Assembly: GCA_963969365.1 (NCBI GenBank)
Contig: OZ017748.1
Coordinates: forward strand, 1,488,001-1,552,000
Direction: 5' to 3'
DNA length: 64,000 bases
Source: Asterochloris sp. CNOR1
Taxonomy: Eukaryota > Chlorophyta > Trebouxiophyceae > Trebouxiales > Trebouxiaceae
Each line of letters begins with the position of its first letter. Position 1 is the stretch's first letter. The position numbers and the translations under genes are program-made. Under the pieces are notes generated by a model. It saw nothing but the letters and a program-made list of their open reading frames with translations, was not told the origin of the DNA and did no database searches. Shown here in pieces: positions 9,867 through 64,000 of this stretch.

Positions 9867-11991
9867 ATGAATGAGGTGGACCGGAGCGCAGCATGCCTGC
9901 AGGACAGCATCATGACAGAAGGAGGTGGATCCAAGAAGGTCAGCAAGAAAATTGGCTTCATAGGGGCCGGCCAGATGGCTGAGGCCCTGGCTCGTGGGTT
10001 TCACAGCAGGGGGGTCGCTCCAGCCAGCAACATGTATGCTTATGACCCTGCCCCAGTTCGGAGGGACGTCTTCAAGAGCTTTGGAGCACATCCTGCGGAG
10101 ACCAGCAGTGAGGTGGGTTTACTTGTGCTCCATGCTGCCTTGTGGCCAAGCTGGGCATCCAAGGCAGAAGGGAGAGTGTGCCTGCTGCGAAGCTGACATG
10201 CAGAGGCCGGACAGCATTCACTGCTGCTGGCTGCCATGTTTGCGGAGCTTGCTACTCTGCTCCAGGCAGACACCTGGAGAAGAGGTCCTCAGGACATGCC
10301 AAAGTACTCAATCTCCATGTCTGGCTGAGCTGAGTTGCTGCCCTGCAGGTCGCAAAGAACTCGCAGGTCATCATGATTGCTGTCAAGCCCCAGTACGTGG
10401 GCACTGTGCTGGAAGAAATCAAGGACATCCTGACAGACGAGCACATCATTGTCTCTATTGCAGCTGGCATCCCTTTGTCCGCCATGAAGGTGAGCCTGAG
10501 CCCACCTTGTGCAGTTGCAGCTGGGGTCCCTGTCGGCAGTGAAGGTGCACCCCGGAACGCATCAAGCAGTGCGGCATGACCTGCACATGGGAAGACTTTT
10601 TTTGTTGCCGACTGCAGCAGGCATCCTTCTGTGAGCCCCCAGGGTCTCGGTCTGCCCCGCAGTGCTGCTATCTGCGCAGCCTCTGCCTGTCCTCCCGCAT
10701 GCGCCATGCCGGCTTGGGGAACTGCTTGGCCCCCAAGTCTTCTGCATAACCATCTGCAGGGGCCTGCAGGTGCTGCTGCTAACTTGTGCACCACCCTCGC
10801 CTCCAGGATCCCAAAGTTGCTCCTTCATTTCAAAATTGCCGCTTGCAGGAGTCTGCAGGTGCGGACAAGCACCTGATCAGAGTCATGCCTAACACTCCCT
10901 GCCTGGTGGGCGAGACAGCATCCGCCATGTGCTTGGGTGGCAAGGCCACAGAGGACGACGCAGAGGTTGTGAGGACTCTGTTCAGTGCTGTGGGCAAGAT
11001 ATTCCAGGTGAGTTTTGTGTCTTGCTCAGGCAAAGTTGCTTGACCGACATGCAACCCTTCATGACAATGCTGTTTGCCTGCTGCTGGCATGCAACCTCCT
11101 GCCCTGAACTCCACTCCTGCTGACATTCACAAGCAACAACAGGGACTAGGTGGCAGGGCAACTCATGCACACCTGCCCTTGCCCACCCATGCCCAACGGC
11201 AGGAAGCTGCTCGGCGCACGGACTGGCCCCAGCATGGTCGTGAGGCAATGCATATATTTCAAACACTGCTGGCACTACCTGCAGGTGGGTCAGCAGCCGC
11301 TCAGCGCAGCAACTGGCTTCAGGATATGGGTGCAGGGATCAATGCAGTGCCTGGCATCACGATCACATTGGTACCATGATCACATGTCAAACTTCCCATC
11401 AAACGCGTGCAGGTGGAAGAAAAATTGCTGAGCGCAGTGACTGGCCTCAGTGGCAGCGGGCCAGCCTACATCTTTGTTATGATCGAGGCGCTAGCAGATG
11501 GCGGCGTCAGGGCTGGCCTGCCCCGCGATATTGCCCAGCAGCTGGCAGCACAGACGGTGCTGGGGTCAGCCAAGATGGTGGTAGAGACTGGCAAGCACCC
11601 TGGTGTGCTGAAAGACATGGTCACAAGTCCAGGAGGTGAGGCAATGTGGTACAGGCAGGGTTGACGTGAAGGTGCCAGGGGTTATGCTCACAGTAACACC
11701 GTGTTTTGCTCCAAAGCTTTGCGGCAAGGCGGCGGCAGAGAGGTACTGTGAGATGCACCAATCTTGCTGGTCGCTTCCCTGCTTGTGCAGAGGGCTATAC
11801 CTCGAACAGATAGCAGAGTCGCCCACATTCTGCTCTCATGTTGGCTGCCTGTGGTAACAACGAAGCGTGCCCCTATAGGCACCACAATTGCTGGCGTGCA
11901 TGAGCTAGAGAAGGCTGGTGTGAGAGCAGCGTTCATCAACGCCGTCCTCGCTGCAGCTACACGAGCAGATGAGCTTGCCTCCAAGTTGTGA
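9867..11991 (+). CDS. P5CR: Pyrroline-5-carboxylate reductase
   Basis: This enzyme reduces pyrroline-5-carboxylate to proline with NAD(P)H, the last step of proline synthesis. Five exons join in frame: 9867-10112, 10349-10489, 10849-11007, 11413-11635 and 11879-11991, giving 293 aa (278 if translation starts at the ATG at 9,912, close to the usual length). The N-terminal Rossmann fold is visible as [18 protein letters not shown]. It is followed by the IAVKPQYV strand, [12 protein letters not shown], and the substrate-binding/dimer region [19 protein letters not shown]. The conserved VTSPGG ... TIAGVHELE stretch is split by the last intron. No clear targeting peptide is seen, so a cytosolic enzyme is likely, though the 15 extra N-terminal residues leave plastid targeting open. 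Introns 2 and 3 contain degraded copies of the adjoining exon edges. Confidence 0.95.
10513..10550 (+). repeat. Exon-edge echo downstream of P5CR exon 2
   Basis: The last 30 or so bases of exon 2 plus its donor (10,457-10,495) recur here in diverged form: shared blocks are ttgcagctgg, then tccct, then gtgaaggtg or catgaaggtg at the donor. A weaker third copy may lie near 10,610 (gcaggcatccttctgtgag). These sit just inside intron 2. Confidence 0.7.
11196..11325 (+). repeat. Two exon-edge echoes upstream of P5CR exon 4
   Basis: The start of exon 4 (11,408-11,450, encoding [13 protein letters not shown]) is preceded by two diverged copies, near 11,196-11,240 (would read [10 protein letters not shown]) and 11,279-11,325 (PLSAATGF). 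Spacing is about 85 and 130 bases. The second copy keeps an AG just before the matching position. Confidence 0.7.
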
Positions 11992-12261
11992 GATGGCCAT
12001 GAACACATGTCACACCTAGAAGCTTGAGACCCTTTTGCAGACTGAATAAGCCCTGAGAACACTTTGCTCAGTACTACAATTAGTTGAGTTACCTGAGTTG
12101 AGTCACCAAAGTGAAGTCAGCAGTGTGAAGCTTAGACACTTCATCTCTAACCATCAGAGCTGACATGTGTTGTGAGTCTGCTGCCAAAATGGCCTTGAGC
12201 CTGATATCATTGGCATGCAAGAAGCAGGGGATGAGGTGCTTTCACTAGCATTCTCAGTTGT

Positions 12262-15200
12262 CTACAGTTTATCATAGTCGAGAAACTCTTTCTTGCGCCT
12301 CTCTCTGGGTATTCTCATACTGTGACTGTTGGCTTCATAGGTGGCAGCTGCACGTTTCTTGCGCTTCGCTGGCACAGGAGTATCATCAGGGGCAGGCAGC
12401 CTGCGACGCTTCTGCTGTCGCATGTTTTTGTCAGTCCCCACAATCTTGCCAGCAGGCTCATGGCGAGGTCGCTTGACATGCTTGGCAGGCACACCTGCAC
12501 CACAGTACTTGGCTAAGCACCATCCCGGCAGGAAGCAAGACACAGGGACATGCCCTTGCAGGACCTTGCAGTCAGCAAGCATTGCCAGCCATCCTCTATC
12601 TATCCTTTATCTGTTGTAGTCTCACTCCAGTTCAGCCAGGAGGAAGTGCATGCCATCCTGAACATTTGCCTGGGCCCCTGAGTTATGGACCAATGAGGAC
12701 GAAGGCAAAGTTGATGCTTCAGCAGCCATCGCCAAGAGCCAGCTCACCGCTTGGTGTAGCCTCCTCACTGTGCCGCGCTGCTCCCTCTCGACCCTCCCTC
12801 TTGCCCTTGCGATTTCGCTTTCCAGGCGCAGGTGTATGCCCAGCCGCAATAGCATTGTATGCAGGCAGCTGGTCTGGGCTGGGGGCTGTGGCTGCAGGAG
12901 GACCCTCTGCCTGGCCCAGCTCCTGGGTGGCAGCTGCAGCCGTCAGAGCTCCCTGCAGCTGGCTGTGCTCCTGAGCGGCAGCAGCAGCGTTTGAGGCCGG
13001 CGGGGCTGCGCCTGCAGCAGTACCCTGTGCCTGACCATGCTCTGCAGCAGCAGCCGCGGGCACAGGCGCGGCCCTGGCAACGCTCCTGGCCGCCCCTCCC
13101 TGACACTGGGCAATGGCAAACCTGATGTGGGACGCCTGCATCGCCATGCCACCCTCCTGTGCCCAGCCTGCCAGGTCACTGCTGTGCTGCCTTTGCTCCC
13201 CACAGTGAGCCGTGCCGTGCTTCGCTGCCTCAGCGCTCGTCAGGAGCTGCTGAGCAGCCGCCAGCTGCCCCAGCGGCACGTCGCCAGGCAGCTGGCATCT
13301 GAGTGCTGCCAGCTGCCCCAGCGGCATTCCCTCATCATCCCTGCGATCAGGCAGCTGGCACCCCTTCGCATCCAGCGGCCCCAGAGGCACCTCGTCTTTC
13401 CCGCAGCCTGGTTGCTGGCGGCTGTGTGCCCTCAGCTCAGGCACAGACATGTCCCGGGAGCAAGCAGGCTGTCCAGGCGCCTGGCTGCCGGTGACCTGCT
13501 GCTGCCATGTCCTCTGCCTGTTGGTGGCAGCGGGCCCGCCCTCAGGCAGCTCAACGAGCTCCTCTGCGCCCGGGGAAGCGGGTGTCAACCCCTCCAGTGC
13601 GCTCCCTGGCTGCCCAGGCGCTGGCACAGAAGGTGCAGCGTCAGGCTGGGCTGATGTTTGCTGCCCCGCGCGCTTGCGCTTGCGAGTTCTGCTCTGCTTG
13701 CACAGGGACACCGCTGGGCTTGCATCTCTGCCCTGCACTGCTGCGCTGCCTGTTCCTGGCATTACTGAGGGCGCAGTGTGCTCACGGACTGGTGCCTCTG
13801 CAGCGGGGGGTGGCCCAGGCTCTGTCGCTGCTGGCTGTGCAGCTTGGGATCTGGCAGCCAGCCTGCCTGGCTTCTCACAGCTGCCTGGACGAGAGGCAAG
13901 CGCATTCACAGGCAAACCTGCCCCACGCGCAGAGCGTCGCCTCATCAAGCTGGGGTCGATGGCAGCGCCGAGGGCAGCCATCCTGCCTGACTGAGCCCCC
14001 TGGTCGCTCTGCTGTGGTGCAGCAGAGCCTTCTGGGGGTGCCGCATGCCTGCTGCTGAGGTGGCGCTCACCTGGGCCGCTGCCAGCACTGGCAGCAGGGC
14101 AGGGAGGCGGCACTGGGGTGCCTGCTGGCTGATGACTGCCTCTGCCCCAGCTTGCGGCCCTGCTTTGGGCGCATGCTGGCTCCTCCCTGGATCTGCCTGC
14201 GTCCCTTCCCGCAGCTTGTTCGCCCTCGGCAGCGCTGCGTGCCCTGCTCTGGGAGCGAGCTGGCTGCCCCCTTGATCTGCTATGGCACGCAGCAGCACGC
14301 TCCTGTGACGTCATTCGGTTGCCTGAAGCCTGCTTGCCCTTCGCGGTGGTGCGAGCACTGCCTCGGGAGCGTGTTGAAACCTCCCCAGACCCACCCATGC
14401 GCGGGGCAGCCTGCTTGCACGTGGCAGCATCGCGGGCCCTGCCCCTTGTAGTCACAGCAGCAGTCAGATCGGCCTCCTGCTGGGGGCCCCTGCCTGCCCC
14501 TGAGCGGGTGACTCGATATTGGCCTGGGTCGACCCCAGCAGTCAAGCTGCCAGCTGCAGCAGCACCAGCGGTGGGGGCCACAGGCGCTGCTGCGGCCAGG
14601 CCGGGTGCAGGCCGCAGCGGGCCTCTCCTGACAGGCAGAGGCGCTGACTGATGATACTCAAGCTCCTGAGCCGCTGCAGCGGCTCCTTTGAGGGGGGGCT
14701 GCCTGCTGGGGCTGCGCCCAGTGCTCTGGCCAGCAAGTGCCGGGCAGGGGCCGCCCTGGCCTGGCACCTGCAGGCAGGTTGGTATGCTTCACACAGTCCG
14801 CTGTGGTCGGCCAGAACAAGAGTCAGGTGAGCGGCAGAGCACGACCCCAGTCAGTTCCCCAAACCTAACAGCAAACCCCATTCTCTTGACATCTGTCCAG
14901 AAACGAAAGCACAGCGCCGACCTGCTTCTGGGCATCACAGTCACTCCGGTGACGCTCAGAGCCGCTGCTGTGGCGCTGCTTGCCAGGCAGAGGCTGCTCC
15001 AGCGGGGCTTTTGCTGCAGCTGGGCTCTGCAGCTCACCTGCTGCAGCGGGGGAGGACCCTGAAGGTGCACACCCCTCTGCAGCCACCTCCTCTGCCTGCG
15101 CTGCCTCCTCTGCCTGCCCTTCCTGCTTTGCCTGCCCTGCCTCCAAGTGCACCTCCTGAGAGCTTGCAGCAGCATGAACTGCACGCGCGGCGCCGCTGAA

Positions 15201-18200: not shown

Positions 18201-20082
18201 CATTCCTGGCTTCCTTTGACCCTGGTGGTGACATGTTCTCCGCAATCAACATTATTTAGGGCAGTACCCTGCCTTAAGCCGAACAAATGGCAGTCACAGC
18301 GCATCAGCACTGCACAAGCCAGCACAGTGTCCTTGGATGCACAGCACATGCAGGTGCTGTGGATGCAGGCAGAACAAAGCTGCCAAGCAGGTACAATCGC
18401 TGACCTGGCAGCCTTGGGTGGGGTTGCCTCCACCTGTCTGCGCTTCTTCCTGCCGTCTGCAGCCACTAGTGTTCAGCCTTCAGCGCGTGCAGATCCCCAA
18501 GGCATTGTCATGAACATGGCTCCCACAAGTCACCTCTCATGACACTTTCATCTCATCGATCGCAGAGGACATCATGCAGGGCTGCAGCAGAGCCATTGTC
18601 ACTCCTGGCAGACATGCTTGGGGCGCACACACTCCACTCTGACAGCGAATCGGAGCATTTCCAGCCTCCAAGGACTCAACAGTGCACAAGTCACATTGCT
18701 CACGGCCAGCAGCCGCACCTTTGGCTAGCCTGGACCGCTTGCCCTTCTCGCCTGCAGCCTTGAGGCTGTAGGTGACTTGGCGCGTCGCCTGGAGAGCCCG
18801 CCTGCAGGTGCAACTCAGAGCTGAGTCGAACAGCAGATCTGACACGTCAATGCCGCCCGTACATGTCGTGAATCTTTGCCGCAGGCTGGCTGCAGAGGTG
18901 GTGCAGCCAGTCCCTCTGTTTGCGCATGCAACCATGCAGCTGTGTGTCACTGCAAGTCAGCTCGGTCAGAGCCAGCGCATTCAGTGTCCAGCCTGCATGT
19001 ACAGGGGCCATGCAGCACTGTTGAGTTGCAACTCACAAGGATTCCGCCTTTGTCAGGCCTCTGCTGCCCTTGGTGGCCAGCTGCCTGGCCATACGAGATA
19101 CAGGATCTTGATTCTGCGGCTGCGGCTGAATCATGCTGCCTGAAGCGGCTGAGTTGCTGCATGAGCCAGCCAGAGCACGCATAGATCCCCTGCAAGGCAC
19201 AGGGTCAGTCTGCTCTGAGGTGGCATCTGCTGCATGGCACCCCCAAATTGCGGTGTGCTGTCAGCCACCTGTGTCCTTGAGGCGCCATGCCCTTGGCAAC
19301 AGCAGCTGTGCCACGCTTGCCGTCACCCAGGCTGCAAGTTGCATAAGCTTGCAGAGGCCGTGCACTGTGTGGCAGATGAGCTCTGAGCGATACAGATCCC
19401 ATGAGATAGTGTCTGCAATGAGCCCATCCCCAGCAATGGCCAAGCACAACAAGCCATTGATGCCACAGAAAGAGTAGTTACCCTTTAGGCTGCGGGCAGG
19501 GCACCCTCACCTTGCAACGGACCCCCTCTTGCTGCAGACTCGGCTCTCTTGCGGGCAATGTAGCTCCCCCTTACCTGCATGCTGCTGACCAGCAGCATGC
19601 AGGGGGTCCCTCGGCCTGGCGGCAGTCCCCCCCTTTGCATGTTGTGCTCCCGCCAGCAATCTCTCTAACAGCATGCCTCTGATCAGCAGGAGGCAGGGCA
19701 CTCCTGCCTGGCCACAGACCTCTCCCTTTGCACATCAAAACGCCAGGAGTGAATCCTCCCCAACATCATGCTGCTGACTAGCAGCAAGCATCTTGTTTCA
19801 CCTGGCCACAGACCCTTCCCTTTGCATGCTGGGCTCCTGCGAGCGCCCCTCACCCAGAGCGGCAGATGAGCCTGCCTGCAGTCCGCTGCTCGGAGAATAC
19901 TCCTCTACCACTGTGCCGTCCCCGTGCAACGCGGCCCTGCTGCGCAGCTCAGATGGTGATGGTGGAGGTGTGTAGTCTCCGCACATGTGCCTCAGCGTGG
20001 CCATTGTCACTGGCAGCTTGCCATCTGCAGTTCTTGACAGCCTGTCAAACGTTGTCTGGCATACACCAAGCAAGATGCTCAC
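12262..20082 (-). CDS. Large disordered protein, or C-terminal part of Treslin
   Basis: Three long minus-strand open stretches follow each other: 17288-15786, 15659-14865 and 14767-12719 (about 500, 264 and 682 codons). All are rich in Ala, Gln, Pro, Gly and Ser, with basic SR/RGR clusters (SRTRKRKRAG) and a short repeat (PLGQLAA...CQLPGD). A final piece at 12582-12262 is Lys/Arg-rich and ends RRKKEFLDYDKL at a stop. Shorter exon-like pieces lie upstream: LPVTMATLRHMCGDYTPPP (near 20,000), IADTISWDLYRSELICHTV (19,400), ARQLATKGSRGLTKAESL (19,080), GIDVSDLLFDSAL (18,840) and CETVINHICKDPLAVC (18,150). The strand matches Treslin directly upstream, and Treslin proteins have very long disordered tails, so this could be one gene. 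I find no decisive motif. Exon borders are not resolved. Confidence 0.38.
19500..19850. repeat. Degenerate tandem repeat, unit about 110 bp, three copies
   Basis: The phrases gctgctgaccagcagcatgc, tggccacagacc and ccctttgcatg recur in order at about 19,580-19,640, 19,670-19,735 and 19,765-19,830. The array lies between two exon-like pieces of the minus-strand gene and is probably intronic. Confidence 0.65.
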
Positions 20083-38652: not shown

Positions 38653-38693
38653 CATTACCAGTGAATATTTGCCTGCTTGTGCATGATGTTCAG

Positions 38694-38745
38694 AAAGAGG
38701 TCTGCCGTGGGGAGGAGCTGGGCTACAAGCAGGTGGGCTGGCATC
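38694..38745 (+). repeat. Echo of the Psb28 coding end in its 3' flank
   Basis: The last codons of Psb28 (38,612-38,652: gagggcaaggagctgggctt, caagaaggtgggct) recur about 100 bases downstream as ggggaggagctgggctacaa, gcaggtgggctgg. A fainter third copy may lie near 38,815 (gaagggaagggagctaggct). Confidence 0.7.
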
Positions 38746-52200: not shown

Positions 52201-54539
52201 ATGGGCACGTGCCAGGCCTTCACGGTGAGCAGTGTAGCTGTTGACCGGCAAGATGATGGGAGCCAGCAAGGTGCAGCAGCCCTGCCAGTGAGAGCCTGAT
52301 GAGCATCCCAACAGTTGGCGGCAACCATCTGATGGAGCTGGGCAGGCAGAATAGGGTGGGCAGTGCAGCTGCTGGCCAGATGGGGCGCCAGGGGTGGTAA
52401 CGGGGGTGGGGAGCACAGCTCTCATGCTGATCTGTCTCAGCGTGCGCAGAGCCCTGTGTCATGTGGCTGTGCTTTGCGGCTGTGCAGTACAGTCAAACGT
52501 GCAGCAGCCCTGCTGATCACGAGCCTGCTGGTTGGAGCCGACCTGTCTTGTGGGCCTGCTGCCAGCATGGTTGCAATTCGCTAGACCTCAACTGCAAGCT
52601 GTTGCGCCTGCTGGGTGCTGGGCAAGGCCATCTGCCGCTCCCGAGGTGCTCTGGTGCCGCTGGGGGAGGGCAGTCCTCCATGGCAAGCTGTGCGTAGTGG
52701 TCGGGCACCTGCGCAGGGCCCAAGCGTCTCACAGAGCTGCCTGCGAATGTATTACTTGGGCATCAAGCCAGCTTTAATGCTGCCCTGTCAGATTCGAAGT
52801 TCTGCTGCTGCAGGATGCCTTTGTGGAGAAGCATGGCGTCAAGTTGGGCTTCATGAGCGCATTTGTGAAGGCCTCTGCGGACGCTCTTCACCTGGTGCCA
52901 GCTGCAAATGCAGTCATCGATGGAGATGAGATCGTCTACAGGTGGGCAACCAGCAACATTTCGACTTGGTTTGAGTTTCACCAGCAGGCAGCAGATCACA
53001 TCATCATATGCATGGTGCTGCACTGCAGCGGCTGCAGACATGTGCATGGCGCTGCGGCTGGGTATATGATTCTGCAGCTGTGTCGCTGGTGCTACCCCCC
53101 ATAGTTGTGCTTGTCATTGGCTCTGCTGCTGCTCTGCTGCATGATGTCCCCCTGCATCTCAGATTGAGGAGGACGCCCATCGTTCTAACTCATCCAGTGC
53201 AGCAATGTGGCCAAGCATCACAGGGACATGGCAGGCATCATGGACCACTGTATAACTGCCTGCTGCAGGGACTAGGGAGACTCAGCAACATGTTTTCTGA
53301 CTGGTGCCTTCTTGTTGTGAAGAATTACCCACTCAGCAATCAGCTTTGCATGTTGCTTGCTTCTGTCATTTTAACAGAGGTGCTGCTTCACGCTGCAGGG
53401 ACTACACAGACATCAGTATTGCTGTAGCCACCCCCAAGGGCCTGGTTGTCCCTGTGCTGCGCAACGTGGACGAACTTGACTTTGCAGGGGTGGAGAAGGT
53501 GAGGCCAGCAGCCCGACCTGGGCTGCAGGCAGCACTGTTTGCTCTCTGGCATTGCTTTGTCCTGAACTCACACAGTGGGCACCACTCTGCCGGTGTGGGC
53601 AGTACACTGCCAGCAGCAGCCGCTGACTGGGGCCCCTCATCGTGGCTCAAAGCCCTGTGGCATTGCTGTTGCTTTGGCGGGGGTGTGCATCATACGCCTA
53701 GCAGCTACAGCCTTCCACATGGTTTCCTCAGTACGGCCAGCAAAGTGGCTTGAGGTTGCAGTCGAGCTTTTGCTAAGCAGAGCTAGTCTGCTGATGATCA
53801 TCAGTATAAGCAATGCTCTGGGCTTGAACCACCAGAGTGGCAGACCTCACGCTGCATCTTGTGCTCAAGTCTGGGGGGAGGGCCAGGTACCTGTGCTCTC
53901 ACCTCAAGTGCACTATCTGTTCAAAAGCCCAGCATGCCCCATGTCCAGGCCATCAACGCTCTGGGCAAAAAGGCCCGTGATGGTACCATCTCAGTAGATG
54001 ACATGGCTGGAGGCACCTTCACCATCTCTAATGGCGGGGTTTACGGCAGCCTACTCAGCACACCAATCATCAACCCTCCCCAGTCCGCCATCCTTGGGAT
54101 GCACTCCATCCAGCAGAGGCCAATGGTCGTCAATGGACAGGTGGGGGCCACAGCCCTGGCGCGTCATGGCATCATGCGTGATTAGTGGGTCACATTCTGG
54201 CCAGCCAGCAGGCGCAGAAAGGCTGTGCAGGTTGCCAAGGTGTGGTCATTGACAGACAGATGGAGCGCATGCAGTCGATGCCTGATCACATTGCGCATGA
54301 CCAATAGGTGATACTCTCAGTCAGCGATTGCCACCATGGTCATTTGCTGAGATGTTGTATGCAGGACGTGGCACTGACCAACAGTGCACTGGCTGTGTGT
54401 GCAGGTGGTGGCCCGCCCAGTGATGAATGTGGCACTCACGTATGACCACAGGCTGATCGACGGCCGTGAAGCAGTGACTTTCCTCAAGCGCGTCAAGGAG
54501 GTGGTAGAAGACCCTGTCCGCTTGCTCCTTGATGTGTAA
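49213..54539 (+). CDS. DLST: Dihydrolipoyl succinyltransferase (2-oxoglutarate dehydrogenase E2)
   Basis: This is the core of the mitochondrial 2-oxoglutarate dehydrogenase complex; it passes the succinyl group to CoA. Nine exons keep one frame: 49213-49272, 49707-49854, 50408-50610, 51014-51178, 51879-52073, 52814-52941, 53399-53498, 53949-54140 and 54405-54539, giving 441 aa. The presequence is Arg/Ala-rich ([20 protein letters not shown]). The lipoyl domain has [21 protein letters not shown] and the lipoylated Lys in [10 protein letters not shown] charged Lys/Glu/Pro linker follows, without a peripheral subunit-binding domain, as is usual for DLST. The catalytic domain shows [78 protein letters not shown] and the active site [12 protein letters not shown]. 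The exon 1/2 junction relies on an AAG acceptor. Several introns carry exon-edge echoes. Confidence 0.95.
50286..50410 (+). repeat. Tandem duplication of the DLST exon 3 acceptor
   Basis: Two copies about 64 bases apart share gctctgccagccacgcc, then gctgctgc, then tgctgcctgcaggggac. The second copy carries the real acceptor at 50,407; the first keeps an identical acceptor and exon start (ctgcctgcaggggac) at about 50,342. Confidence 0.88.
50826..50945 (+). repeat. Three echoes of the DLST exon 4 start
   Basis: Exon 4 begins ctgcaggaagcaaaggagga at 51,010. Upstream copies are at 50,828 (gtgcaggaagcaaagctgta), 50,903 (cttgcagaaggcaac) and 50,917 (cttgcagaaggcaacaaagg). All keep an acceptor-like AG. 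Confidence 0.75.
51690..51885 (+). repeat. Repeated acceptor tracts before DLST exon 5
   Basis: Three diverged units with cacctctgac or caccgctgag, a cagtgt or gagtgt block, a pyrimidine stretch and an AG or GC near the end precede exon 5. The last supplies the real acceptor (cagtctcag). The exon start ggggggcc also appears near 51,587 (tcaggggggcc). Confidence 0.55.
52178..52365 (+). repeat. Two echoes of the DLST exon 5 end
   Basis: The exon end at 52,030-52,080 (gaggtggacatgacccgcct, gatggacctacgcaaggagt, tcaaggtggg) recurs at 52,178-52,230 (gagatggacgttacccacct, gatgggcacgtgccaggcct, tcacggtgag). A fainter copy is at 52,325-52,365 (aaccatctgatggagctggg). Confidence 0.82.
53195..53295 (+). 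repeat. Echoes of the DLST exon 7 start
   Basis: Exon 7 begins ctgcagggactacacagaca at 53,393. Upstream copies are at 53,264 (ctgcagggactagggagact) and more weakly at 53,215 (atcacagggacatggcagg). Confidence 0.72.
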
Positions 54540-54701: not shown

Positions 54702-57700
54702 TCAAGCGCTCTGATACAGCTTCCTGACTTGTTCTAGGGTACATGGCAGGCGGGTGACTGGGCAGCACCCATGCTGATCAACAAATGGGAAGATGCAGGG
54801 GTAGCAAAATACATAGCCTGAGCAGGCTGCCATCGCTGGATTGGTGCGCTTCTTGCGGCACAGGGCGCAGACGCTGCGGTCCTCAGGCAGAGGTACTCCA
54901 TCAATGGCAGGTCTGGGTGCTGGCGGCGGTGGTGGAATTGGGGGGGCTTTGGTGCCTCCCAGCTTGCTTTCGGCTGACAGATACCACCACTCCAGCAACT
55001 GCATGGCAGACAGGGCAGTGAAGACAGCAGCGGCAGCTTGGTGCCCACTGCACGGCAAATTTGAGGGCGCCCGCTTAGAGCACAACGCAAGAAGTGAGCC
55101 TGCAGATGGTGCTCACAGTAGCAGGACTGAGCCTTCTCTTTGGAAGGACATGGCAAGAAACCTCATGCAGTACTGACAGGTTCAGACCTTCTGAATTTGA
55201 GCACAAGGTGAGCCTGCACATGACATTACTACAAGTTATTCTAACTGCGCAGCTGCGCTGCCCAGAGCAGTGCACACCTTGAAGGCAAACACAGACAGGA
55301 TGAGGGCGTTGCGGGTGTGGTCGGCAAGGGCATAGCTGCTGTGCAGCCAGCCCTGGCGCAGCACGCGAACCAGCCACGGCCCAGATTGCAGAGCCCCCTG
55401 CAGCTGCTGCTGTCTCTGGCGCTGCTTGCGGCGCTGCACCTCAACCTGGGCAGGTAGGGTGAAAACCTCAAGATCAGTACTGAAGCATTGTCAAGCAGAA
55501 CTGCCAAAGCGCAAAGAGTGGCGGTGCAGTTGAGTGCAGGAGCATTCTCTGAGGCCGGCAGATGGGGATGCAGCCAGCCCGGCGGCAAATGAATGCAGCA
55601 CATGGTGCCAGCGTGAAGCAGTCCAGCCCTCTGCTGCAGGCAGCAGGGACTCACCATTTCATGCCCCGACACCCTGACCACATGCTGCTGCAGAAGGTGC
55701 AGGACCGGCGAGAAGTAGGGTGTGGAATCCAGCAAGTAAAGCAGCTGATACCTGCAGGGGCAGCATTTACTTGGTCCGCCATGCTGCAAGCAACAATGTG
55801 TCTCACTGGAGCATCAGGGCGCACAGCAGAGCCCTGGCCACAAGGCCAGGCAAGCGGCTGTGCAGCCCTTGCAGCAGTGTCTATTACTGTAGCGCAGACA
55901 GCCTGTGTCTGTTAGTCTGCAGCGCGGGCAGGCATGACATGCAGATGCTTCTGTACAGCTGGGCGTCTCTGGTGAAGCAGCCTCTCCCGCACCGGAGCCA
56001 GTGCCATCAGACTATCATTGTGCAAGTGAGGCCCGTGTTTGACATACCCTCAAAGCAAAGCGCCTCTTCAGTGGCATGCGACACGCTGCATGGCCAAAAG
56101 TGCAGCACGGCCAGCAGGGCAGCTGGTCGTGCAGCTTCCGCAGCAGTGCCGGCCAGATGCTGCTGCGCAGCAGGCCTTGGTCTGCAGGGCACGTAGCCTC
56201 TGCAGCACAGCGCTGTAGATGCCGTCGTGCAGCAGGCCCAGATCTGCCACTCACCCAAAGCGAAGAGCCTCCTGGCTGGCGTGCACCCAGGGGTACACTC
56301 TCAGAAAACAGTTCAGGGTGGTCGCCTTCAAGCGCTGCAGCTGCGCCTGTAGGGTCGAGCCGCCAGCAGCCTGCAGAAGTCATGTGAAGTAGGGGGGACA
56401 ACGCAGACTGGTGGAGAGTGCTGACAGCCTGCAGGATCAAGGCTGCACAAAAATTCAGCAGAGCACCGTTTGAGCGGCAGGGCAGAGCTGCTGAGTGTCC
56501 AGCCAGGGCATGTGGTCACAGCAGAGCAGGGCTCCAGAGACCAGCACAGCACAACAGTGGCAGGCAGTCTGCCATGCAGCAACATGACAGGTCTCAGACT
56601 AACACCAATGCCGCGGCTAGACGTGTCGAACATGAGTCGAAGTAAGGAGCAGGAGCTTGTGAGGGGCATGGCACAGCTGCAGAGCCCTGAGCAGTCTGTC
56701 TCACCTCATGCCGTGCTGACTCAGTCTGGGCTCGTGCAAATGTCAACCCCAGGACTCCGTCCACGCGCCTGTGAACGCTGTACAGCCGGTCCAGCTTGGA
56801 CTTCAGGTAGGGCAGCAGGACCTGCAAGGAGAGCAGCATGGCGATGCATTAGGGACCTGCAGGAGCAGCGCACATGACATAGGTTCCTCAGCAGGGCCAT
56901 TGGCCATACGCTGCTGACATCAGCTGCCACAGGCACCCTAGGACATAGGAGCTGGGCAATATAGCAGGCGGTGTCAACACCCCAGTGGGAGTTCAGGGCA
57001 GGCAGCAGGTGGGGACACCCGGGAATCAATGTGTGATTATGGCAGTCCAGGATCTCATCTGATCAGCCGGGGTGTGCTGCTGGCTGTGAGTCAACAGGAC
57101 AGAGGCATGCAGGCGCCATAAGCCTGGCCTACCTGCCTCCTACTCCTCGTGCTGGTGGGGACACCCGGCCAGAGCATGGCCAAGTCACAAACCAGTCGGG
57201 TTGCTCACCAGGACAGCCAGGGTGTGCTGCTGGCCGCGGTGCAGCAGCGCAGGGTCAGGCAGGCCCTGTGAGGTTGGCCTGCCTGCCCGCCGCAGCCCGT
57301 ACAGGCTCTCCGCAAAGGAGGAGCTCCCATTCTGCAGGCTCTGGCGGTCCAGCAGAGCCGTTATGAGGGCAAATACCTCGTCTTCCCAGTCCAACAGCCT
57401 GTGGAACATGGGGCGTCGCTGAGCAAAGATCTGCAGCCGTGAGAGACTGGTCAACACTCTCAGCGCAACCTGAGACGGTGTCTCATGGACCAGTTTGGTA
57501 GCATGGCACAGGTAGCGCATGCATTGTTTTGAATTGAGGAAAGCAGCATGAACTGCCTGATGAGACGTCGGTGTGGTGGCGATCATGTACGAACAGGGCA
57601 TGATTGCCTGACACTGACAGCGAAGAGCCACAGACAGTTTGCTCTGACAAAGGTGTGCATCTCCACACTGTGGGATGAACTCACGGACAGAGAGTAAATG

Positions 57701-57798
57701 GTGGCAGCCTTCAAGCTGGGCATTAGGCGCTCTGCTGCCACTAGCTCAAAGAAGGTGGGCCGGGTAGACCCGTCCCCGCCCAGCGCCACAAAGGACAT
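54702..57798 (-). CDS. PEX12: Peroxisome assembly protein PEX12
   Basis: PEX12 is a RING peroxin of the PEX2-PEX10-PEX12 ubiquitin ligase that recycles the import receptor PEX5 at the peroxisome membrane. Seven exons keep one frame: 57798-57685, 57469-57209, 56821-56705, 56370-56255, 55751-55655, 55445-55276 and 55047-54702, giving 406 aa. The N-terminus has PTFFELVAAERLMPSLKAA, then FHRLLDWEDEVFALITALL and SSSFAESLYGLRRAG, then VLLPYLKSKLDRLYSV and RVYPWVHASQEALRF. The last exon has LLEWWYL, a proline run, and the C-terminal RING-like domain SVCALCRKKRTNPAMAACSG, YVFCYPCIFPFV, CCPVTRLPC. As in other PEX12 proteins, only some zinc ligands are present (it binds a single zinc). It ends tail-to-tail with DLST and starts head-to-head with PsaF. 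Confidence 0.93.
56055..56115 (-). repeat. Echo of the PEX12 exon 4 end
   Basis: On the minus strand the exon 4 end (cacgccagccaggaggctct, tcgctttgg/gtgag, 56,285-56,250) recurs about 185 bases on as catgccactgaagaggcgct, ttgctttgagggtatg. The copy would read HATEEALCFEG against the real HASQEALRFG, and keeps a GT donor. Confidence 0.78.
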
Positions 57799-58123
57799 GG
57801 TCTGCTGCTGTGTGCTGGTAGCCGGCGATGCACTTCAGTCTTGCTTTGCCAGGGCAGAGGAGCAGCTGCCTGGATCAGGCAGCTGTAGGCTGCTGTCCAG
57901 ATCCTTTTTTGTGCTCAACATGCCAGCTTGAACAGGCCCTTCAGTACACAGGTATGCTCTGACTATAGCACTGCTGCCTGTGCTTCAGGTTCAGGTGCAA
58001 TAGCCATTCTCGAAACGCTACCGGTGGGCCACCGCTCCTCTGGTGTCCTCTTCGCAAATCTTAGCCCTCATCGCCAATTTTGTTGCCTAGAGGACGCCTT
58101 TGGCTGATACAGACTCAGCAGCC
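57799..58123. promoter_or_regulatory. Divergent promoter, PEX12 / PsaF
   Basis: About 325 bases separate the two start codons and hold no coding exon that I can see. PsaF is expected to be strongly light-regulated, so its core promoter probably lies in the right half. I see no clear TATA box. Confidence 0.4.
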
Positions 58124-59918
58124 ATGGTGGCCACTATGACTCAGGGCCTATCCTCAAAGGTGAGGCTGCTTCTGACCCTGCCACCGAGGCCGGTCCGGCC
58201 CCCGTCATGGTTATGCTGACCTGTGCTTGGCTTGTGTAGGAGCTCAGGTGCAGCAGGCCCCTGGTGCACAACAGCAGCCGCAGGGCCGCTGTCCAGGCAA
58301 CCCGCCCTGTGACGTGCTCCGTCCAGCCCGTCCGCGACGCTGGCAAGGCGATCGCTGCTGCTGCCCTTGCAGCGGCCGTCAGTCTGGGCAGCGTGCAGGC
58401 AGCCCACGCGGACATCGCTGGCCTCACCCCCTGCAGTCAGAGTAAGCCTTTTGCCAAGAGGCAGAAGGGAGAGGTCAAGGCCCTGCAGAAGAGGCTGAGC
58501 AAAGTAAGTTTGTGCTGAGGGATAGCGTGCTGTCCGTCAATCAAGATTGTGATCCAGCAGATGCTGGCTGCTGTGGGCCGCAGTGCTGCTTCCAGGCAAA
58601 TTCTTGCAGGCTGTGCGCTTGATTTCACATGGGCCTCACCACTGTCTGCAGCATGACCTTGGGCCAGAGGATGTTTTGCTCTAGCTCCAGCAGCCATCCC
58701 CTATCTTCCCAGTGGACACATACATGCAGCACAAGCAGAACCTGATGGTTCCAGCATTTGCTGGCAGCACTAGTCTCCCAGTGTACGCATGTGCAGTGTC
58801 CAGATACTGCAGAAGTGACCAGCTGCCAGCTCACCAAACCCCTTTGTGCTGCAGTACGAGGCTGACTCTGCCCCCGCCCTGGCTCTGAACGCCAGCATTG
58901 AGAGGACAGAGAAGCGCTTTGCCACATATGCAAAGCAGGGCCTGTTGTGCGGCACTGATGGCCTGCCCCACCTCATCTCTGACCCTGGGCTGGCCATCCG
59001 CTATGGCCACACCGGCGAAACTCTGGTGAGTAGTTTTTCTTTTACGCTGAGGCTTTGGATCAGACATCTGGTCTCTGCTATGGCTGGGTCAATCATGCTG
59101 CGCACCTTGCAGCGCTATGCAGCAGTCTAGACAGCATTGGAGAGTGCAGCTCTGGTGTTTGTGTGGTGTGGCTGGACTGCATCAAAATTTTTGCCCTGCA
59201 CCAGCAACATTGAAGCTCTCAGCAAATAAGCATGTGCTTTGCGTCCATTAAGAGAAGGGCTGGGCAAGCCTGCAATGCCAAGTTGCAGCACTGATGACCG
59301 GCGTTTTGCAGCTGGTGCCTTAGCTGTACAGCTGTGGCTGATCAGCTGCCACTATTTTGCTGCAGATCCCCACCATTGCCTTCCTGTACATTGCTGGCTA
59401 CATTGGGTACGTCGGCCGTGAGTACATCAAGGCTGCCAAGAAGGAGCAGAAGCCCACAGTGAAGGAGTACATCATCGATGTGCCCTTCGCACTCAAGCTT
59501 GCAGGACAGGTGGGGCACACCTCCACAGCTGTAGTGCTGCCATGCGTCACGTGTTTGATCCCTCATAGCTTTCACATTGGGGCTGCCCTGCGCTTATGGT
59601 TGCAGTCAGCATTGTTACCTGAGCATGGAAATAGCTGCCAGGGACAGCCCCTCCCAGACTAGTGCATGCCTCAGCTCGGCTTCGGCAGAGCCACCGTGTT
59701 CATGTCAGTCCAAGCAAATATTGGCCAGGCTGACATCTGTCAGAGACCACCCTGCGCTCTTGAGTTCCGGTGAGCCCTGCTTAACTGCTTTGAATTGCTG
59801 CTGATTGCATTGACTCTGGATGATGCAGGGTGCTGGCTGGCCTCTGAGGACCATCCAGGAGCTGCGCAAGGGGACACTCACAGAGGACGACTCCAAGATC
59901 ACTGTATCCCCCAGGTGA
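58124..59918 (+). CDS. PSAF: Photosystem I subunit III (PsaF)
   Basis: PsaF is the lumen-exposed docking subunit of photosystem I for plastocyanin or cytochrome c6. Five exons keep one frame: 58124-58159, 58240-58503, 58855-59025, 59366-59509 and 59829-59918, giving 234 aa. The transit peptide is bipartite: a basic stromal part, then a thylakoid signal ([18 protein letters not shown]) cleaved after AHA, leaving a mature start DIAGLTPC. The lysine-rich donor-binding helix follows ([20 protein letters not shown]). Then come [26 protein letters not shown] and the membrane segment [20 protein letters not shown]. The C-terminus is [15 protein letters not shown] ... ITVSPR. Exon 2 needs the acceptor at 58,239 (tgtgtag) to keep phase. 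Confidence 0.96.
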
Positions 59919-60095
59919 TGGCAGGGAATTGCAGCCAGGCGTGTACCCCTTCCCCTGTATCCTTCAGGGTCACCTGTTCCCCGCATGCTGAAGCATCAAA
60001 TAGGTCTTCCTTACCCCCCAACCAATTTTGAGAGATGCCAGTTCAAAAGACTTGGTTGTAAGACAAACATTTCAACAGCAAGAAGCTGAAAATGC
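59919..60095. other. Short tail-to-tail spacer
   Basis: About 177 bases separate the PsaF and CTF18 stop codons. The two transcripts probably overlap at their 3' ends. No other feature is seen. Confidence 0.45.
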
Positions 60096-63000
60096 TTAAT
60101 CGATTCGTGGCCTGAGGAAGTCCTTCATGAGCATGGGGCGTTTGACAGCCTGCAGAGGAGAGGTGCCAGCTCAACATCAAGACCATCTCATGTAGACAAC
60201 CTATGGCTCGTGCACACAGACAGATGCAACAATCAATTAGCGACAAGCCTACATTTGTGTAGCCCTCATGGAATTTGTATCGTGCTGGCGCCTTGAGCAC
60301 TCCCCCTCCTGGAAGTCCAGGCAGCACTTGCCTGAGACTCCAGCTGAGAAGCACAAGCACGCAGCCTGGCAGGACCACAAACACCTTGCCTGCGGCTGTG
60401 TGTGCAGCTTGCAGCTTCTGCTGGGCGCTGAGCGGCATTTTGCGCTTCTCCGTCTTTGTTCGCAGTGTCTCAAGCCAGTTTCCCTTGCTGCTGACTTTGA
60501 CTGCCTGGCCTATACCTGCAGCCATCCGGAGCTGCCACTTGACACCTGAATGTGGCTCTGGCAGGGCCTTGTATTGAGTGAAGGCTTCTTACCTGCTGCC
60601 TTCATGCGCTGTGCCACAGAATACTGCAGGTTGGCTGATGGCGGCCGCTGGCTGCTTGGCTCAGCAACAGCAGCAGCATGGTCCAGAGTATGGCCATGCT
60701 GCTGCTGCCTGCTTGAGTCCAGCCCTGCTCGCACGGGATTGACAGGGGCGTCAGCACCCACAGTGCTCTGCCCACACCTGGCCTGCACATAGCTGTGAAG
60801 GCTGTCTGGCACTCTGCCTGTGCTGTCTCCTGACGTGCACAGTGACATGCAATGGAGCTGCCTGCGAGAGTGATGTGGTGCACCAGCTCCTGCCTCCTCC
60901 AGCACTCTGTGAGGAGCAGCTGAAGGAGGCTCACAGGCATACAAGCCTGCGAGCAAAGCACGTAGATGCCAAAGAGCAGGTTGCATGCAGAGGGCAGGCG
61001 AGTGCCAGATGCAGGCAGCAGGCAGAGGGCAGGCTCGTTCTGAGCGCTGGCAGTCGTCATTTGCTCACTGAGAGAGCAAGCAGAAGACAAGGCGTGTCTG
61101 TTTGTTCTGCACTTGCTTGGCTCCATGCTGGCAGCTCACCAGCTCACGCCGCCGAATGAGCTCCAGTGTCACGTCATGGGCCACCAGGCGCCTTAGTGCC
61201 ATCGACATGGTTTTGCATGGGAGACCAGCGACCTGCAGCAGCCCAAGCTTCAAATGATGCACGTCGCCAGCCGCAGAACATGCCCTGAGCGATGCATCCC
61301 TGCAAGTGCTGGGATGAAGGCTGAGCAGCTTAGATCACTGGTCACAACATGCTGCTGCGGTGCCAAGCCATGCCATAGCTTACTGTACACAGCCCTGACA
61401 GCGGAGGCATGAGAGGGTGAGCAGCCAGCCCTGGTGCTTTCTGGCGGCTGCTGCTGCAAGCAATTGGTCTGCAAGCTCTGCTGGTGCAAGCGCCAGACCG
61501 GCTCAGCTGACGGGGTCTGGGCTCACCAGGGCAAAGGCACAGCCTGTGCGTGATGGGGTGCAGGGGGCAGAGCCTTGCAGCACAGCAGGGAGCTGCCAGA
61601 ACCAGCACAGCTTGTGCACAGATGGACAGCACAGGAGTGTGGCAGCTGCTGATATCCTGCCTCAGCTGCGTCCAGCATGAAGGTCAGGCTGTAGGCAACT
61701 GCATGTTGACGGTGTATGCCACAGCTGCTCACCCAAGAAAGGTGCAGTCGTTGCACTGCAGGGTGCAGGGGCGGAGCACTACCTGTACAGCTGGGCAGCT
61801 GCTGCCTGAGCTCAGCTGCCACATTCTGCTTGAATGTCTCTGCTCTTCAGCGATGAGCAGTGTTGACGAGGCCTGCCCCTGCTGCTCACCGGGAAAAGGC
61901 ACAGTCGATGCACTGCAGGGTGCACAGGGACGGCCCTCCCAGCACAGGAGGGCGGCAACTGCCTGAGCTCTGCCTCAGCAACTGTGTCCAGCATGAAGGT
62001 CAGGCTGTAGGCAATCAGCACTCTCACGAGGCCTCCCACTGCTGCCTTCTCCTGCTGAGAGAACAGGTTTGGGGCAACAGGGCGTACCTGACAGTCAAGG
62101 GCTGCCACCAAGAAAGGCAACACGTCCTGCAGGCACGACAACTTGTCTTCAGTAGCCTTGCAAAGCGAAACAGGACTGAGGCAGCTGCTGTTCGCGTGCA
62201 TACAGCTGCGACAACGCTGTGCAAACAAAGTGCTCACAAGGCTGCAAGCAGTGAAGAAGCAGACCTTAGCTGCTGCTCCGCCTGCCACCGTCTGGAAGGC
62301 CTGAGGCCCGACCTCCCTCTGCCACTCCTGGAGCAGGGTTTGCCTTGCAGCGTGCTGCCTGGCAGCAGCAGCGCCTGCCTGTGGCCACTGCAGCTGCAGC
62401 CTGCACGGGCCAAAGCCCCATTCACAATGTGTCCAAGTCATCTACTTTTGTGTTCTACTTTTGTGCATGGTGCAAGCCACCCTCTGTTTGTGCAATTTGA
62501 TGGCATGGCCTTGTGCACCAGTGTGCCGCTAGCAAAGCCTGGTGTCGCACTCAAGCAGCAGTCCAGACGGCTGCACCCCAGCCAGATGCTAGTGGGACCA
62601 GCTGATCATCACACAATGATGTTGCAGTGGCTGCTTCAGCAAACCATGGCATGAAGAGGCACGCTCTCGATCCCATGACTGCAGCCAGGCTGTGCCCCAG
62701 CAAAGCTGTCCAAAGCGGTAAGCAGAACCAGCCAGGCTCTGCTGTGAGGCCATGCAACAGCAGCGTGCAGGCGAGCAGCACGCTGCCTGCTTGCCGCAAA
62801 AACAGCGCATGAAAACAGCAGCAGCACCCAGCCCACCTGTTGGCCCTGTGCCCTGCCAGTGCACAGGCTGGCGTCGTGCTTGACCAGAACATACTCCCCG
62901 CACAGTGCCAGGCTGCGCAGCAGCAAGTCTCTTTGCAAGCACCTCCCTCATCATCGACCGCCAAGAAGCCAGAGTGGCAGTCGCTGTAGCAGCCGGCGAG

Positions 63001-64000
63001 GAAATGAACCAGACCTCCAATGAGCATACCCCACCTGGTGGGCCCCCCAGCCAGGCTGCACACCAGCGCTCCATCAGCAAGGACAGCCCAGCCGCGTCAG
63101 GCTGCGCAACAGCATCCTGGCTCAGCAGCTGGCACGACGCAGCGCTCCAGATCTTGGGGTATGCCCACCTGTCGGGCCCTGCAGCCAGGCTGCGCAACAG
63201 CAGCGCACAGGCCGGCTGGTACTTGACCAGGGCCCACTCCCCGCGCCGGTGGGTCATCGCCGCAAACCGGTCGCTGGCGCCCAGCAGGTCGGCGATCGCA
63301 GCGGTGCGCCGCAGCTGCGTGTCCATGTAGCGTGTCCGGTATACGTTCTCATGGAGGCCGGCCATGACCAGCTCACTGTCGCCAAAGTCCTGCAGCATGC
63401 CCAGGCGCTGCTGCAACTGGGCAGCCGGGCTTGCGGCAGTCCGCCCACTGGGGACCTGCAGGGCAAGCAGCAAGGTCAGGCTGGCTTGTCTGCAGAGGGT
63501 GCGACAGCCTGGGCCTGGGGCTGCGGCCTGGGGCGAGGCCGCAGGGAACTTGCAGGGCAGAGGAGTGGGGCTTGACAAATTGGGTTGAAAGGGGATCAGG
63601 GGCACCAGCTGCAGGTTCCGGCTGCTGCGGGGCTGGTGAGGGCAGCCCCAGGCTCAAGAACCTGCAGGACAGAGGAGCCTGCATTTCCTACGCGCAGGCT
63701 GGCCTGCAGCCATGATGGGCTGGCACCCCTACAGTGTGCACAGCAGCTGTGCGAATCTGAGCGGGGCTGAGCCGCATTGAGCACTTGCAAGAGCAGCAGC
63801 TTTCTCTTCCATTGGTTTGCAGCCCACCTTGCTGACCAGAAGCTCCTGCCAAATGGCAAAGGCGCCCTTGCTCACGTCCTTCTGCCCAACCTGCAACCGG
63901 TGTATGTCTGCCGTGGTGATGGGCCGCAGTCGCCTGGCCAGGAACTGCAGCGTGTTGAGGCAGGCCCGCACATCGCACTCCGTCTTCAGGCACAGCGCCT
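60096..64000 (-). CDS. CTF18: CTF18, alternative clamp loader large subunit (C-terminal half)
   Basis: CTF18-RFC loads PCNA at forks and supports sister-chromatid cohesion. The window holds only the C-terminal half; the AAA+ core lies to the right. From the edge, ALCLKTECDVRACLNTLQFL and VGQKDVSKGAFAIWQELL match the end of the AAA+ module. The next exon (from about 63,460) has LQDFGDSELVMAGLHENVYR and IADLLGASDRFAAMTHRRGE, then WALVKYQPACALLLRSL. Near 62,100-61,990 come VLPFLVAALDCQVRPVAPNL and VLIAYSLTFMLD, parallel to LLLDILAPKLRPVSTQLYS and LAYSLTY in animals. Near 61,220, LPCKTMSMALRRLVAHDVTL. The C-terminal domain has RYKFHEGYTN (60,270) and ends AVKRPMLMKDFLRPRID, the conserved CTF18 tail that binds Dcc1-Ctf8. 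Multiple exon-edge echoes blur the intron-exon limits at 61,600-63,300. Confidence 0.86.
61600..61850 (-). repeat. Echo of the CTF18 AYSLTFMLD segment
   Basis: The real exon part at 61,990-62,020 and the sequence after it repeat about 317 bases downstream on the minus strand: plus-strand cagcatgaaggtcaggctgt occurs at 61,674 and at 61,991. The surrounding 150-200 bases also match in order (ggcaactgc/ggcagctgc, gtgcatcgactg/gtcgttgcactg, gggtgcac/gggtgcag). Both copies would read AYSLTFMLD. Confidence 0.82.
62825..63220 (-). repeat. Several echoes of a CTF18 exon end
   Basis: The exon end near 63,165-63,215 (plus strand ccacctgtcgggccctgcag, ccaggctgcgcaacagcagc) is echoed at about 63,029 (ccacctggtgggccccccag, ccaggctgcaca), 63,097 (gtcaggctgcgcaacagcat), 62,905 (gccaggctgcgcagcagcaa) and 62,836 (cccacctgttggccctgtgc). 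Confidence 0.68.

Follow-up and report, generated by a model that had tools for sequence, protein, structure and literature searches.

Decaying Copies of Exon Edges in Introns of the Green Alga Asterochloris sp. CNOR1 and Their Probable Origin by Short Local Duplication

Introduction

Short duplications that lie entirely within genes and involve both introns and exons were reportedly described as internal gene duplication by Gao and Lynch in 2009. As far as the partial account of that work goes, what we describe here is alike in consisting of short within-gene duplications across introns and exons. It differs in that 19 of the 38 introns tested carry a copy of the edge of a neighbouring exon (an echo, p ≤ 0.05), in that many copies are very decayed, and in the lack of any sign that an intron was gained.

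Duplication can also give rise to a new intron, as in the RdRp gene of potato (PMC4974935) and in the near intron pairs of Drosophila (PMC2891723). Judging by the available sections of both papers, the event is of the same kind, but there a new intron arises, whereas here an intron already present seems merely to lengthen, without the Rogers signature. Conspicuously long introns occur in the volvocine algae, which are green algae as well; any mechanism that drives their length is considered to be of probably ancient origin and the benefit of introns that long to be unknown, and copies of exon edges are unmentioned in the accessible passages of that paper (PMC8226300). Introners, as presented in the available part of PMC9860276, are copies of one element spread over genes. 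Both introners and echoes add intron sequence in many genes; introners are dispersed, whereas the copies described here are local and gene-specific. A literature search that covered the titles and the beginnings of abstracts of the papers listed, with most subscription papers outside it, found no recognised description of decayed splice-junction copies in algal introns.

Materials and Methods

The window is the whole stretch of 64,000 nt that was analysed, positions 1,488,001 to 1,552,000 on the forward strand of contig OZ017748.1 of Asterochloris sp. CNOR1 (assembly GCA_963969365.1), and all coordinates below are window positions (position 1 is its first letter). Gene finding used a per-base coding bonus set by hand after a first gene finder had under-predicted. 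The gene models were mostly checked by homology. P5CR, DLST, TBC1D20, CTF18, and PEX12 have relatives in the PDB; in ZGRF1 the N-terminal domain (Pfam, E = 5.8e-06) and the UPF1/SEN1-type helicase part were matched separately and probably belong to a single gene. With PsaF as query, no relative turned up in viral contigs or in contigs of prokaryote genomes. The model at 36.4–37.7 kb, which has no Pfam family, and the second exon of Psb28 are codon-model predictions. The exon ends at 63169 and 61890 in CTF18 and at 34162, 34897, and 35407 in ZGRF1 were adjusted by homology and splice consensus when the repeats were already known; the end at 61890 lies outside the aligned homology and rests on the donor consensus.

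Of the 65 direct repeat pairs, 36 lie at least partly beyond the modelled genes: in 34 both copies are outside, in one the other copy is in an exon, and in one it is in an intron. These 36, including the CTF18 pairs at about 61521–62045, were omitted from the junction-null and block-geometry counts. The comparison of exon edges with their own and with foreign introns took introns of at least 150 bp. Echoes were aligned with their exons in 17 alignments, which are not independent because several share an exon; an eighteenth row (ZGRF1 34162, copy 1) matched itself through overlapping intervals and contributed 0 exon sites. The parameters of the simulations were chosen by hand.

Results and Discussion

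The window is rich in local direct repeats. At a score of at least 18 and spacings of 54–539 bp there are 65 direct against 3 inverted repeats (below 600 bp), at any spacing up to 1600 bp there are 67 against 6, and at a score of at least 24 the counts are 32 and 0. As controls, 30 kb of E. coli K-12 yielded 1 repeat with the same pipeline, two order-1 shuffles yielded 1 and 0, and an order-3 resample yielded 0. Stricter scoring left 26 hits at E ≤ 0.01, every one spaced by at most 313 bp, and no distant or inverted match at this value in the 64 kb window. As all the strict hits are local, nothing in the window points to a dispersed repeat family, in agreement with the initial annotation, which had set the copies apart from introners. 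The copies are in direct orientation and placed locally within one gene, as in internal (tandem) gene duplication. The 2,721 bp between modelled genes are touched by 0 pairs, with about 3 expected at the mean density of the window, a shortfall that counts against the account favoured below. A minisatellite or satellite array was considered and rejected: TRF gave 14 rows, 12 of them with units of at most 39 bases, and the 60- and 65-base units reach only 2.0 copies.

Table 1: Exon-edge echoes and other local repeats in the window (positions in the window; d, spacing).
Feature	Positions	Strand	Details
P5CR donor edge and echo	10445-10550	+	exon 10349-10489; echo from 10515, 28/33 identical, crosses donor; homology, own-intron test
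P5CR acceptor edge and short echo	10755-10893	+	exon from 10849; echo near 10755, 17/19; own-intron test
P5CR acceptor edge and echo	11280-11450	+	exon from 11413; echo 11280-11322, d=128
In-frame internal repeats in 689-aa open frame	12719-14788	-	d=120, 63, 84, 114; predicted gene
'Treslin' candidate repeats	19565-19844, 20568-20928		spacings near 94 and 85 bp
In-frame internal repeats in 524-aa open frame, ZGRF1 region	26951-27514	+	d=177, 60, 117, 81; predicted frame
ZGRF1 acceptor edge and echo	31521-31712	+	exon modelled from 31675; echo 31521-31566, d=146
ZGRF1 acceptor edge and 2 copies	33723-33961	+	exon from 33892 (homology); 33775-33854, d=106; 33723-33753, d=179
ZGRF1 donor edge and copies	34131-34446	+	exon end 34162 (homology); spacings 118, 240
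ZGRF1 donor edge and echo	34798-35118	+	exon end 34897 (homology), GC donor; 122-base echo 34997-35118, d=199, donor lost
Psb28 donor edge and echo	38592-38744	+	exon end 38643; echo 38682-38744, d=90, donor sequence kept
TBC1D20 acceptor edge and echo	40169-40563	-	exon 40252-40076; echo 40470-40563 upstream in intron, d=301
TBC1D20 intron-internal direct repeats	42249-42479	-	d=107, 171; not junction-spanning
DLST acceptor block, two adjacent copies of about 65 bases	50285-50412	+	89% identical; exon from 50408; both copies with CTGCCTGCAG/GGGAC
DLST donor edge and 2 echoes	52012-52379	+	exon end 52073; echoes 52167-52243, 52329-52379, both with GT
PEX12 donor edge and echo	56029-56284	-	exon 56346-56255; echo 56029-56079, d=205, donor lost
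PEX12 donor edge and echo	57043-57287	-	exon 57430-57209; echo 57043-57137, d=150, donor lost
CTF18 exon end and 2 copies	61627-62045	-	donor by consensus 61889/61890; 61704-61816, d=157; 61627-61728, d=313
CTF18 donor edge and partial copies	62679-63244	-	exon 63410-63169; spacings 134, 344, 440, 500

Many introns of the window hold copies, now decaying, of the exon edge next to them (Table 1). When each edge was compared with its own and with foreign introns, 22 of 76 junctions reached p ≤ 0.05 against 3.8 expected, the 22 including one in the 36.4–37.7 kb model, which lacks homology support, and the DLST acceptor at 51013, whose position within a linker of low conservation comes from the consensus; 19 of the 76 reached p ≤ 0.01. 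Fifteen of the 22 significant echoes cross the splice site. Echoes are present in P5CR, ZGRF1, DLST, TBC1D20, CTF18, and PEX12, the genes for which they had been proposed, and the pattern is common to unrelated genes, as also proposed. Psb28 has an echo too. None of the 8 junctions of PsaF has an own-intron echo. The signal is maximal for windows from −45 to +15 (13/36 donors and 8/36 acceptors at p ≤ 0.05); it peaks in windows that straddle the junction, on both sides, and declines with depth into the exon. The side is also the expected one: the end of exon 1 resembles the first 200 intron bases in 9 of 42 introns and the start of exon 2 the last 200 in 6 of 42 (p ≤ 0.05), against 1/42 and 2/42 in the crossed comparisons of an exon edge with the opposite side. 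This bears out the initial annotation in placing donor-side echoes downstream and acceptor-side echoes upstream. Its copy number of one to about seven was recovered only in part, with one or two copies mostly and up to four at CTF18 63169, seven not being reproduced. At the Treslin candidate the repeats are there, but the modelled protein gave no Pfam family that would confirm the name.

Intron length correlates with the repeats (rho 0.72, 42 introns). The density of pairs is 0 per kb in introns shorter than 250 bp (0 pairs in 10 introns), 1.0 between 250 and 400 bp, and 2.1 above 400 bp.

Mismatches between echo and exon are spread over the three codon positions as 77/303, 76/305, and 84/306 (p = 0.75; several alignments share an exon), and this equality indicates that the echoes are not exons. 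The claim that echoes often still translate is weak: in-frame stops occur in only 2 of 17 alignments, but 7 of the 17 have gaps and the codon positions show no bias. Among the alignments that cross the junction, 7 of 10 on the donor side and 4 of 5 on the acceptor side retain the splice dinucleotide, as we read them, and the DLST acceptor echo is nearly intact, as would suit copies that serve as alternative exons, as mutually exclusive exons, or as cryptic splice sites under regulation. Against such functional copies stand, besides the codon positions and the gaps, the merely partial exon copies and a spacing that in 22 of 28 intron pairs is not divisible by three, and we regard them as extremely improbable.

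Within coding frames the copies follow another rule. There the spacing is a multiple of three in 10/10 pairs against 6/28 intron pairs (Fisher p = 1.7e-5), a value that is optimistic because the test was run after the pattern had been noticed by eye, on three long ORFs that are predictions without a homology check. Hits at chance level within coding frames keep the frame in 9 of 14 cases, so the background is not 1/3, and against it 10/10 has p = 0.012.

A further reading is that the introns were born by tandem duplication of exonic segments bearing AGGT (the Rogers model), which the available sections of PMC3443670 report in several eukaryotes and with which our case shares the mutational event and the gene context. 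The similarity it predicts, of the end of exon 1 to the intron 3′ end and of the start of exon 2 to the intron 5′ end, was found in 0/42 and 0/42 introns at p ≤ 0.05. Very old gains could have decayed past detection, and we hold this origin to be very unlikely.

Considering that donors and acceptors alike show the strongest signal at the junction and that the spacers have little ungapped similarity, the copying might be directed at junctions. Such a process, coupled to splicing or to the DNA of splice sites (break repair templated by unspliced RNA is one example), would put exon edges into the adjacent intron. Under a rigid-shift null, junction-crossing pairs are indeed in excess, 14 against 6.6 expected at a score of at least 18 (p = 0.0025), 10 against 4.9 at 20 (p = 0.0035), and 9 against 3.6 at 24 (p = 0.001). 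We did not keep this null as the main test, since any duplicated block with exon sequence in it necessarily reaches the junction. When the geometry of the block was taken into account, exon-involving pairs were 18/28 (0.64) against 15.4 expected at 18 (p = 0.22) and 13/18 at 20 (p = 0.12), neither significant, with a slight, marginal excess of 9/11 at 24 (p = 0.045). The check for a junction-spanning excess named in the initial annotation is positive in the window against rigid shift, and under block geometry not significant at the two lower thresholds and marginal at the highest, and of its proposal of intron lengthening by junction duplication what stands is that repeat-bearing introns are longer. 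The exonic part of the 17 aligned echoes varies from 5 to 101 bases, so there is no fixed footprint, and pairs internal to introns (10/29 in modelled genes) and in-frame coding pairs (10) also occur, both of which speak against a directed process. Simulated undirected duplication with exon constraint gave similar exon-involving fractions, 0.32–0.69 at a constant rate and 0.9–1.0 after an old burst (runs with 30, 10, 2, and 8 pairs detected), and these ranges together bracket the observed one. A process aimed at splice junctions is not required to account for the echoes. We consider such directed copying unlikely, and it is just as doubtful that splicing-coupled copying of exon edges and splice sites is a main contributor to intron length in the lineage of this alga.

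A key aspect is whether the copies arose side by side or at a distance. The median match is 55 bases and the median spacing 133; in 3 of the 28 intron pairs the match takes up 0.9 or more of the spacing, and in 9 of 65 pairs it fills the spacing, with a spacer shorter than 5 bases. Ungapped similarity between spacer and flank is absent (mean z 0.05, n = 56, p = 0.41), while gapped similarity exceeds chance overall (n = 51; right p = 0.007, left p = 0.0004), with z > 2 in 17/51, and such resemblance is what decayed tandem units should show. In the two best-preserved cases the units, of 60 and 65 bases, lie side by side. Pairs beyond those that fill the spacing or have spacer similarity may be either decayed or truly spaced. 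As many copies are parted by a poorly alignable spacer, tandem duplication must invoke age. Local templated insertion, in which break repair copies a nearby piece of 30–120 bases in the same orientation and pastes it with a gap, would account for the median match and spacing and for spacers without ungapped similarity, and two simulations of spaced copies gave match/spacing ratios of 0.52 and 0.47. It should yield inverted copies too, which hardly occur here, and the gapped similarity of the spacers and the adjacency of the best-preserved pairs also count against it, so that we find it rather unlikely. Tandem simulations at a constant rate gave identities of 78–91 against 75 observed and match/spacing of 0.45–0.96 against 0.32, the run with the heaviest indels reaching 0.33 at identity 91. 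The nearest old-burst run had identity 73 and match/spacing 0.44; of its 30 pairs a fraction of 0.90 involved an exon, and its density was 0.61 pairs per kb, compared with the 1.63 observed; no simulation reproduced every statistic at once.

Taking all this into account, we favour as the source of the echoes, with a probability of roughly 0.7, short local duplications that arose without direction and then passed through the filter of selection and neutral decay. Genes would have undergone frequent short direct duplications of blocks of tens to a few hundred bases, spaced mostly by 60–300 bases, probably in tandem through break repair or slippage, and these would strike irrespective of splice sites. 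Within an exon a copy would survive only when the frame is kept, and within an intron it would survive freely. A block spanning a junction would survive if the outer splice site (the first donor or the last acceptor), presumably the one in use, stays in use; the spare exon edge would thereby fall into the intron, which gains the length of the block, and the spare copy would decay neutrally. As the real exon is conserved, mainly one copy of the two decays, and junction-spanning events would stay recognisable longest and so stand out. Most of the events are probably old.

Conclusions

Introns decay fast, and for this reason the origin of their sequence is rarely readable. A conserved exon edge beside a decaying copy amounts to a fossil that can be dated: since the original is preserved in the exon, the size, the place, and the rough age of one duplication can be read from each echo. 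Decoy splice sites are predicted beside the real ones. A near-intact copy of the DLST acceptor lies near 50342, 65 bases upstream of the real acceptor. If the density seen in the window holds genome-wide, the echoes would provide a direct measure of intron lengthening and a candidate reason for the long introns of some green algae, a question left open in the available passages on the volvocine algae (PMC8226300).

Gene models and repeat content

Gene models came from a custom-built HMM of codons and splice sites and were then checked against homologous relatives. The homology-checked models were P5CR, DLST, PsaF, TBC1D20, the ZGRF1 N-terminus, the ZGRF1 helicase part, Psb28, PEX12, and CTF18. 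The intron set comprised 42 introns with 17,195 bases in total and a median length of 378.5 bp. They come from nine gene models, of which the one at 36.4-37.7 kb lacks homology support. PsaF, a photosystem I subunit (top PDB match at E=2e-88, with chloroplastic labels on some of the matched chains), and Psb28 are both encoded here in intron-rich genes, and therefore the DNA is most likely nuclear and green-algal.

The repeats in the window are real and not due to chance. Self-comparison at a score of at least 18 gave 67 direct versus 6 inverted repeats (65 versus 3 at spacings, that is, distances between copies, below 600 bp), and at a score of at least 24 there were 32 versus 0. With strict scoring, all 26 matches were spaced at most 313 bp and no inverted or distant match was found in the 64 kb. 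The controls yielded 1 repeat in 30 kb of E. coli and 0-1 in shuffles. The exon-edge copies ("echoes") described in the initial annotation are confirmed. Coverage by repeats was 12.9% in introns, 11.0% in exons, and 7.7% in the remaining, unverified bases, and none of the pairs touched the 2,721 bp between modelled genes. Other features are collected in the table.

Coordinates of features in the window
Position	Gene or region	Observation
19565-19844; 20568-20928	Gene named Treslin in the initial annotation	Repeat spacings near 94 and 85 bases; Pfam family not found in the candidate model
27982-28625	ZGRF1 region, part without homology	About six short similar blocks clustered, several with AGG(T/A) at the end; candidates for repeated micro-exons or for an array of echoes
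33107; 34897; 41287	ZGRF1 (two), TBC1D20 (one)	GC donors apparently used in the homology-guided models
46486-46606	174-aa putative open frame, minus strand	60-base unit duplicated once, 92% identity; best-preserved duplication of the window
50285-50412	DLST	Pair of almost identical acceptor sites, separated by 65 bases
58124-59918	PsaF	Four introns, 167-351 bp

Placement of the copies at exon edges

For every exon edge, a 60-base window was compared with the intron of that edge and, for reference, with introns from other genes. The strongest signal came from junction-straddling windows (-45 to +15), with 13/36 donors and 8/36 acceptors at p<=0.05, while purely intronic windows were positive in 8/38 and 4/38. 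Deeper in the exon the acceptor-side signal was absent (2/33 and 2/27 for windows starting at 90 and 120 bases) and the donor-side signal faded more slowly (7/32, 4/26, and then 3/13 at 180). By junction, 22/76 were positive at p<=0.05 and 19/76 at p<=0.01, located in 19 of 38 introns; the best alignment crossed the splice site in 15 of the 22. No echo was found at any of the eight PsaF junctions. Same-side comparisons were positive in 9/42 and 6/42 introns versus 1/42 and 2/42 for crossed sides, so that the proposed placement of echoes on the matching side holds.

The echoes are unlikely to be exons: in the 17 informative alignments, mismatches were even over codon positions 1, 2, and 3 (77/303, 76/305, and 84/306; p=0.75) and seven contained gaps. 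The birth of introns from duplicated exon segments (Rogers-type gain) is likewise unlikely, since the predicted similarities, of the exon-1 end to the intron 3′ end and of the exon-2 start to the intron 5′ end, were each seen in 0/42 introns. In DLST, the 65-base distance between the two acceptors is not a multiple of three. Splicing to the upstream acceptor would shift the frame, which makes the pair well suited to showing how an acceptor is chosen.

Longer introns held more pairs (rho 0.72) and at higher density: the 10 introns shorter than 250 bp had none, those of 250-400 bp had 1.0 per kb, and those above 400 bp had 2.1 per kb, a trend to be read considering that short introns offer less room for a detectable pair. 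The simplest reading is that introns were lengthened by duplication, in agreement with what had been proposed.

Structure of the repeat units

In most of 65 pairs the match was shorter than the spacing (medians 55 and 133 bases), and the ratio of match to spacing in verified introns was 0.32. Spacers did not align to flanks in ungapped comparison; gapped comparison of 51 pairs detected some similarity (p=0.007 and 0.0004; z>2 in 17). Simulated old age with exon constraint lowered the ratio to 0.44 at identity 73, and none of the constant-rate tandem simulations fitted both ratio and identity. This leaves two readings: most of the events date far back, or a gap was left when many of the copies were inserted. 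In the two pairs that are best preserved, one at 46486 (60 bases) and one at 50285 (65 bases), the units are adjacent.

Directed and undirected duplication

Under a rigid-shift null, 14 pairs crossed junctions versus 6.6 expected (p=0.0025; p=0.0035 and p=0.001 at two higher thresholds), as junction-directed copying would have it. However, a duplicated block with exon sequence and an intronic spare copy must reach the junction, and therefore this excess has to be judged by block geometry. When blocks of the observed spacing were placed randomly over introns, 18/28 pairs involved exons versus 15.4 expected (p=0.22); stricter scores gave 13/18 (at least 20, p=0.12) and 9/11 (at least 24, p=0.045). 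Exon-involving pairs also stay visible for longer because the exon copy is conserved. In simulations of undirected duplication with exon constraint, whose parameters were tuned by hand, the exon-involving fraction was 0.47-0.69, 0.43-0.61, and 0.32-0.51 in three constant-rate sets (the last with spaced copies in two of four runs) and 0.90-1.0 in old-burst runs, in which just 30, 10, 2, and 8 pairs were detected. The fraction in the real data was 0.64, between the two kinds of run, and the exonic portion of echoes is variable, from 5 to 101 bases. Thus, in this small sample and with hand-tuned simulations, nothing observed requires a directed mechanism. The initial idea of junction duplication is partly supported, in that many copies do cross junctions, but a process aimed at them is not needed.

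The proposed undirected short local duplication, filtered by selection, would also concern coding DNA. Spacing was a multiple of three in 10/10 pairs from three long open frames and one DLST exon, versus 6/28 in introns (Fisher p=1.7e-5); weak chance-level matches in coding frames gave 9/14, a background against which 10/10 has p=0.012. This test came after the pattern had been noticed by eye. Such in-frame repeats would be expected if undirected duplications had passed through selection.

Relation to known duplications

Break-repair routes to tandem duplications in plants were reportedly described by Schiml in 2016 and by Vaughn and Bennetzen in 2014. Within-gene tandem duplication, junction-spanning blocks included, is already known. 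A review names tandem genomic duplication as the sole proposed intron-gain mechanism shown in vivo (PMC3443670), a paper on a potato gene describes an intron gained from a block spanning an acceptor (PMC4974935), and a Drosophila paper cites surveys in which many short duplications affected exons (PMC2891723). A work on volvocine algae does not settle why their introns are long (PMC8226300). Unlike in Rogers-type gain, the introns of the window seem to have been lengthened without intron gain; this looks new, as do the density of echoes in one 64-kb window and the fact that decayed copies are still preserved at exon edges.
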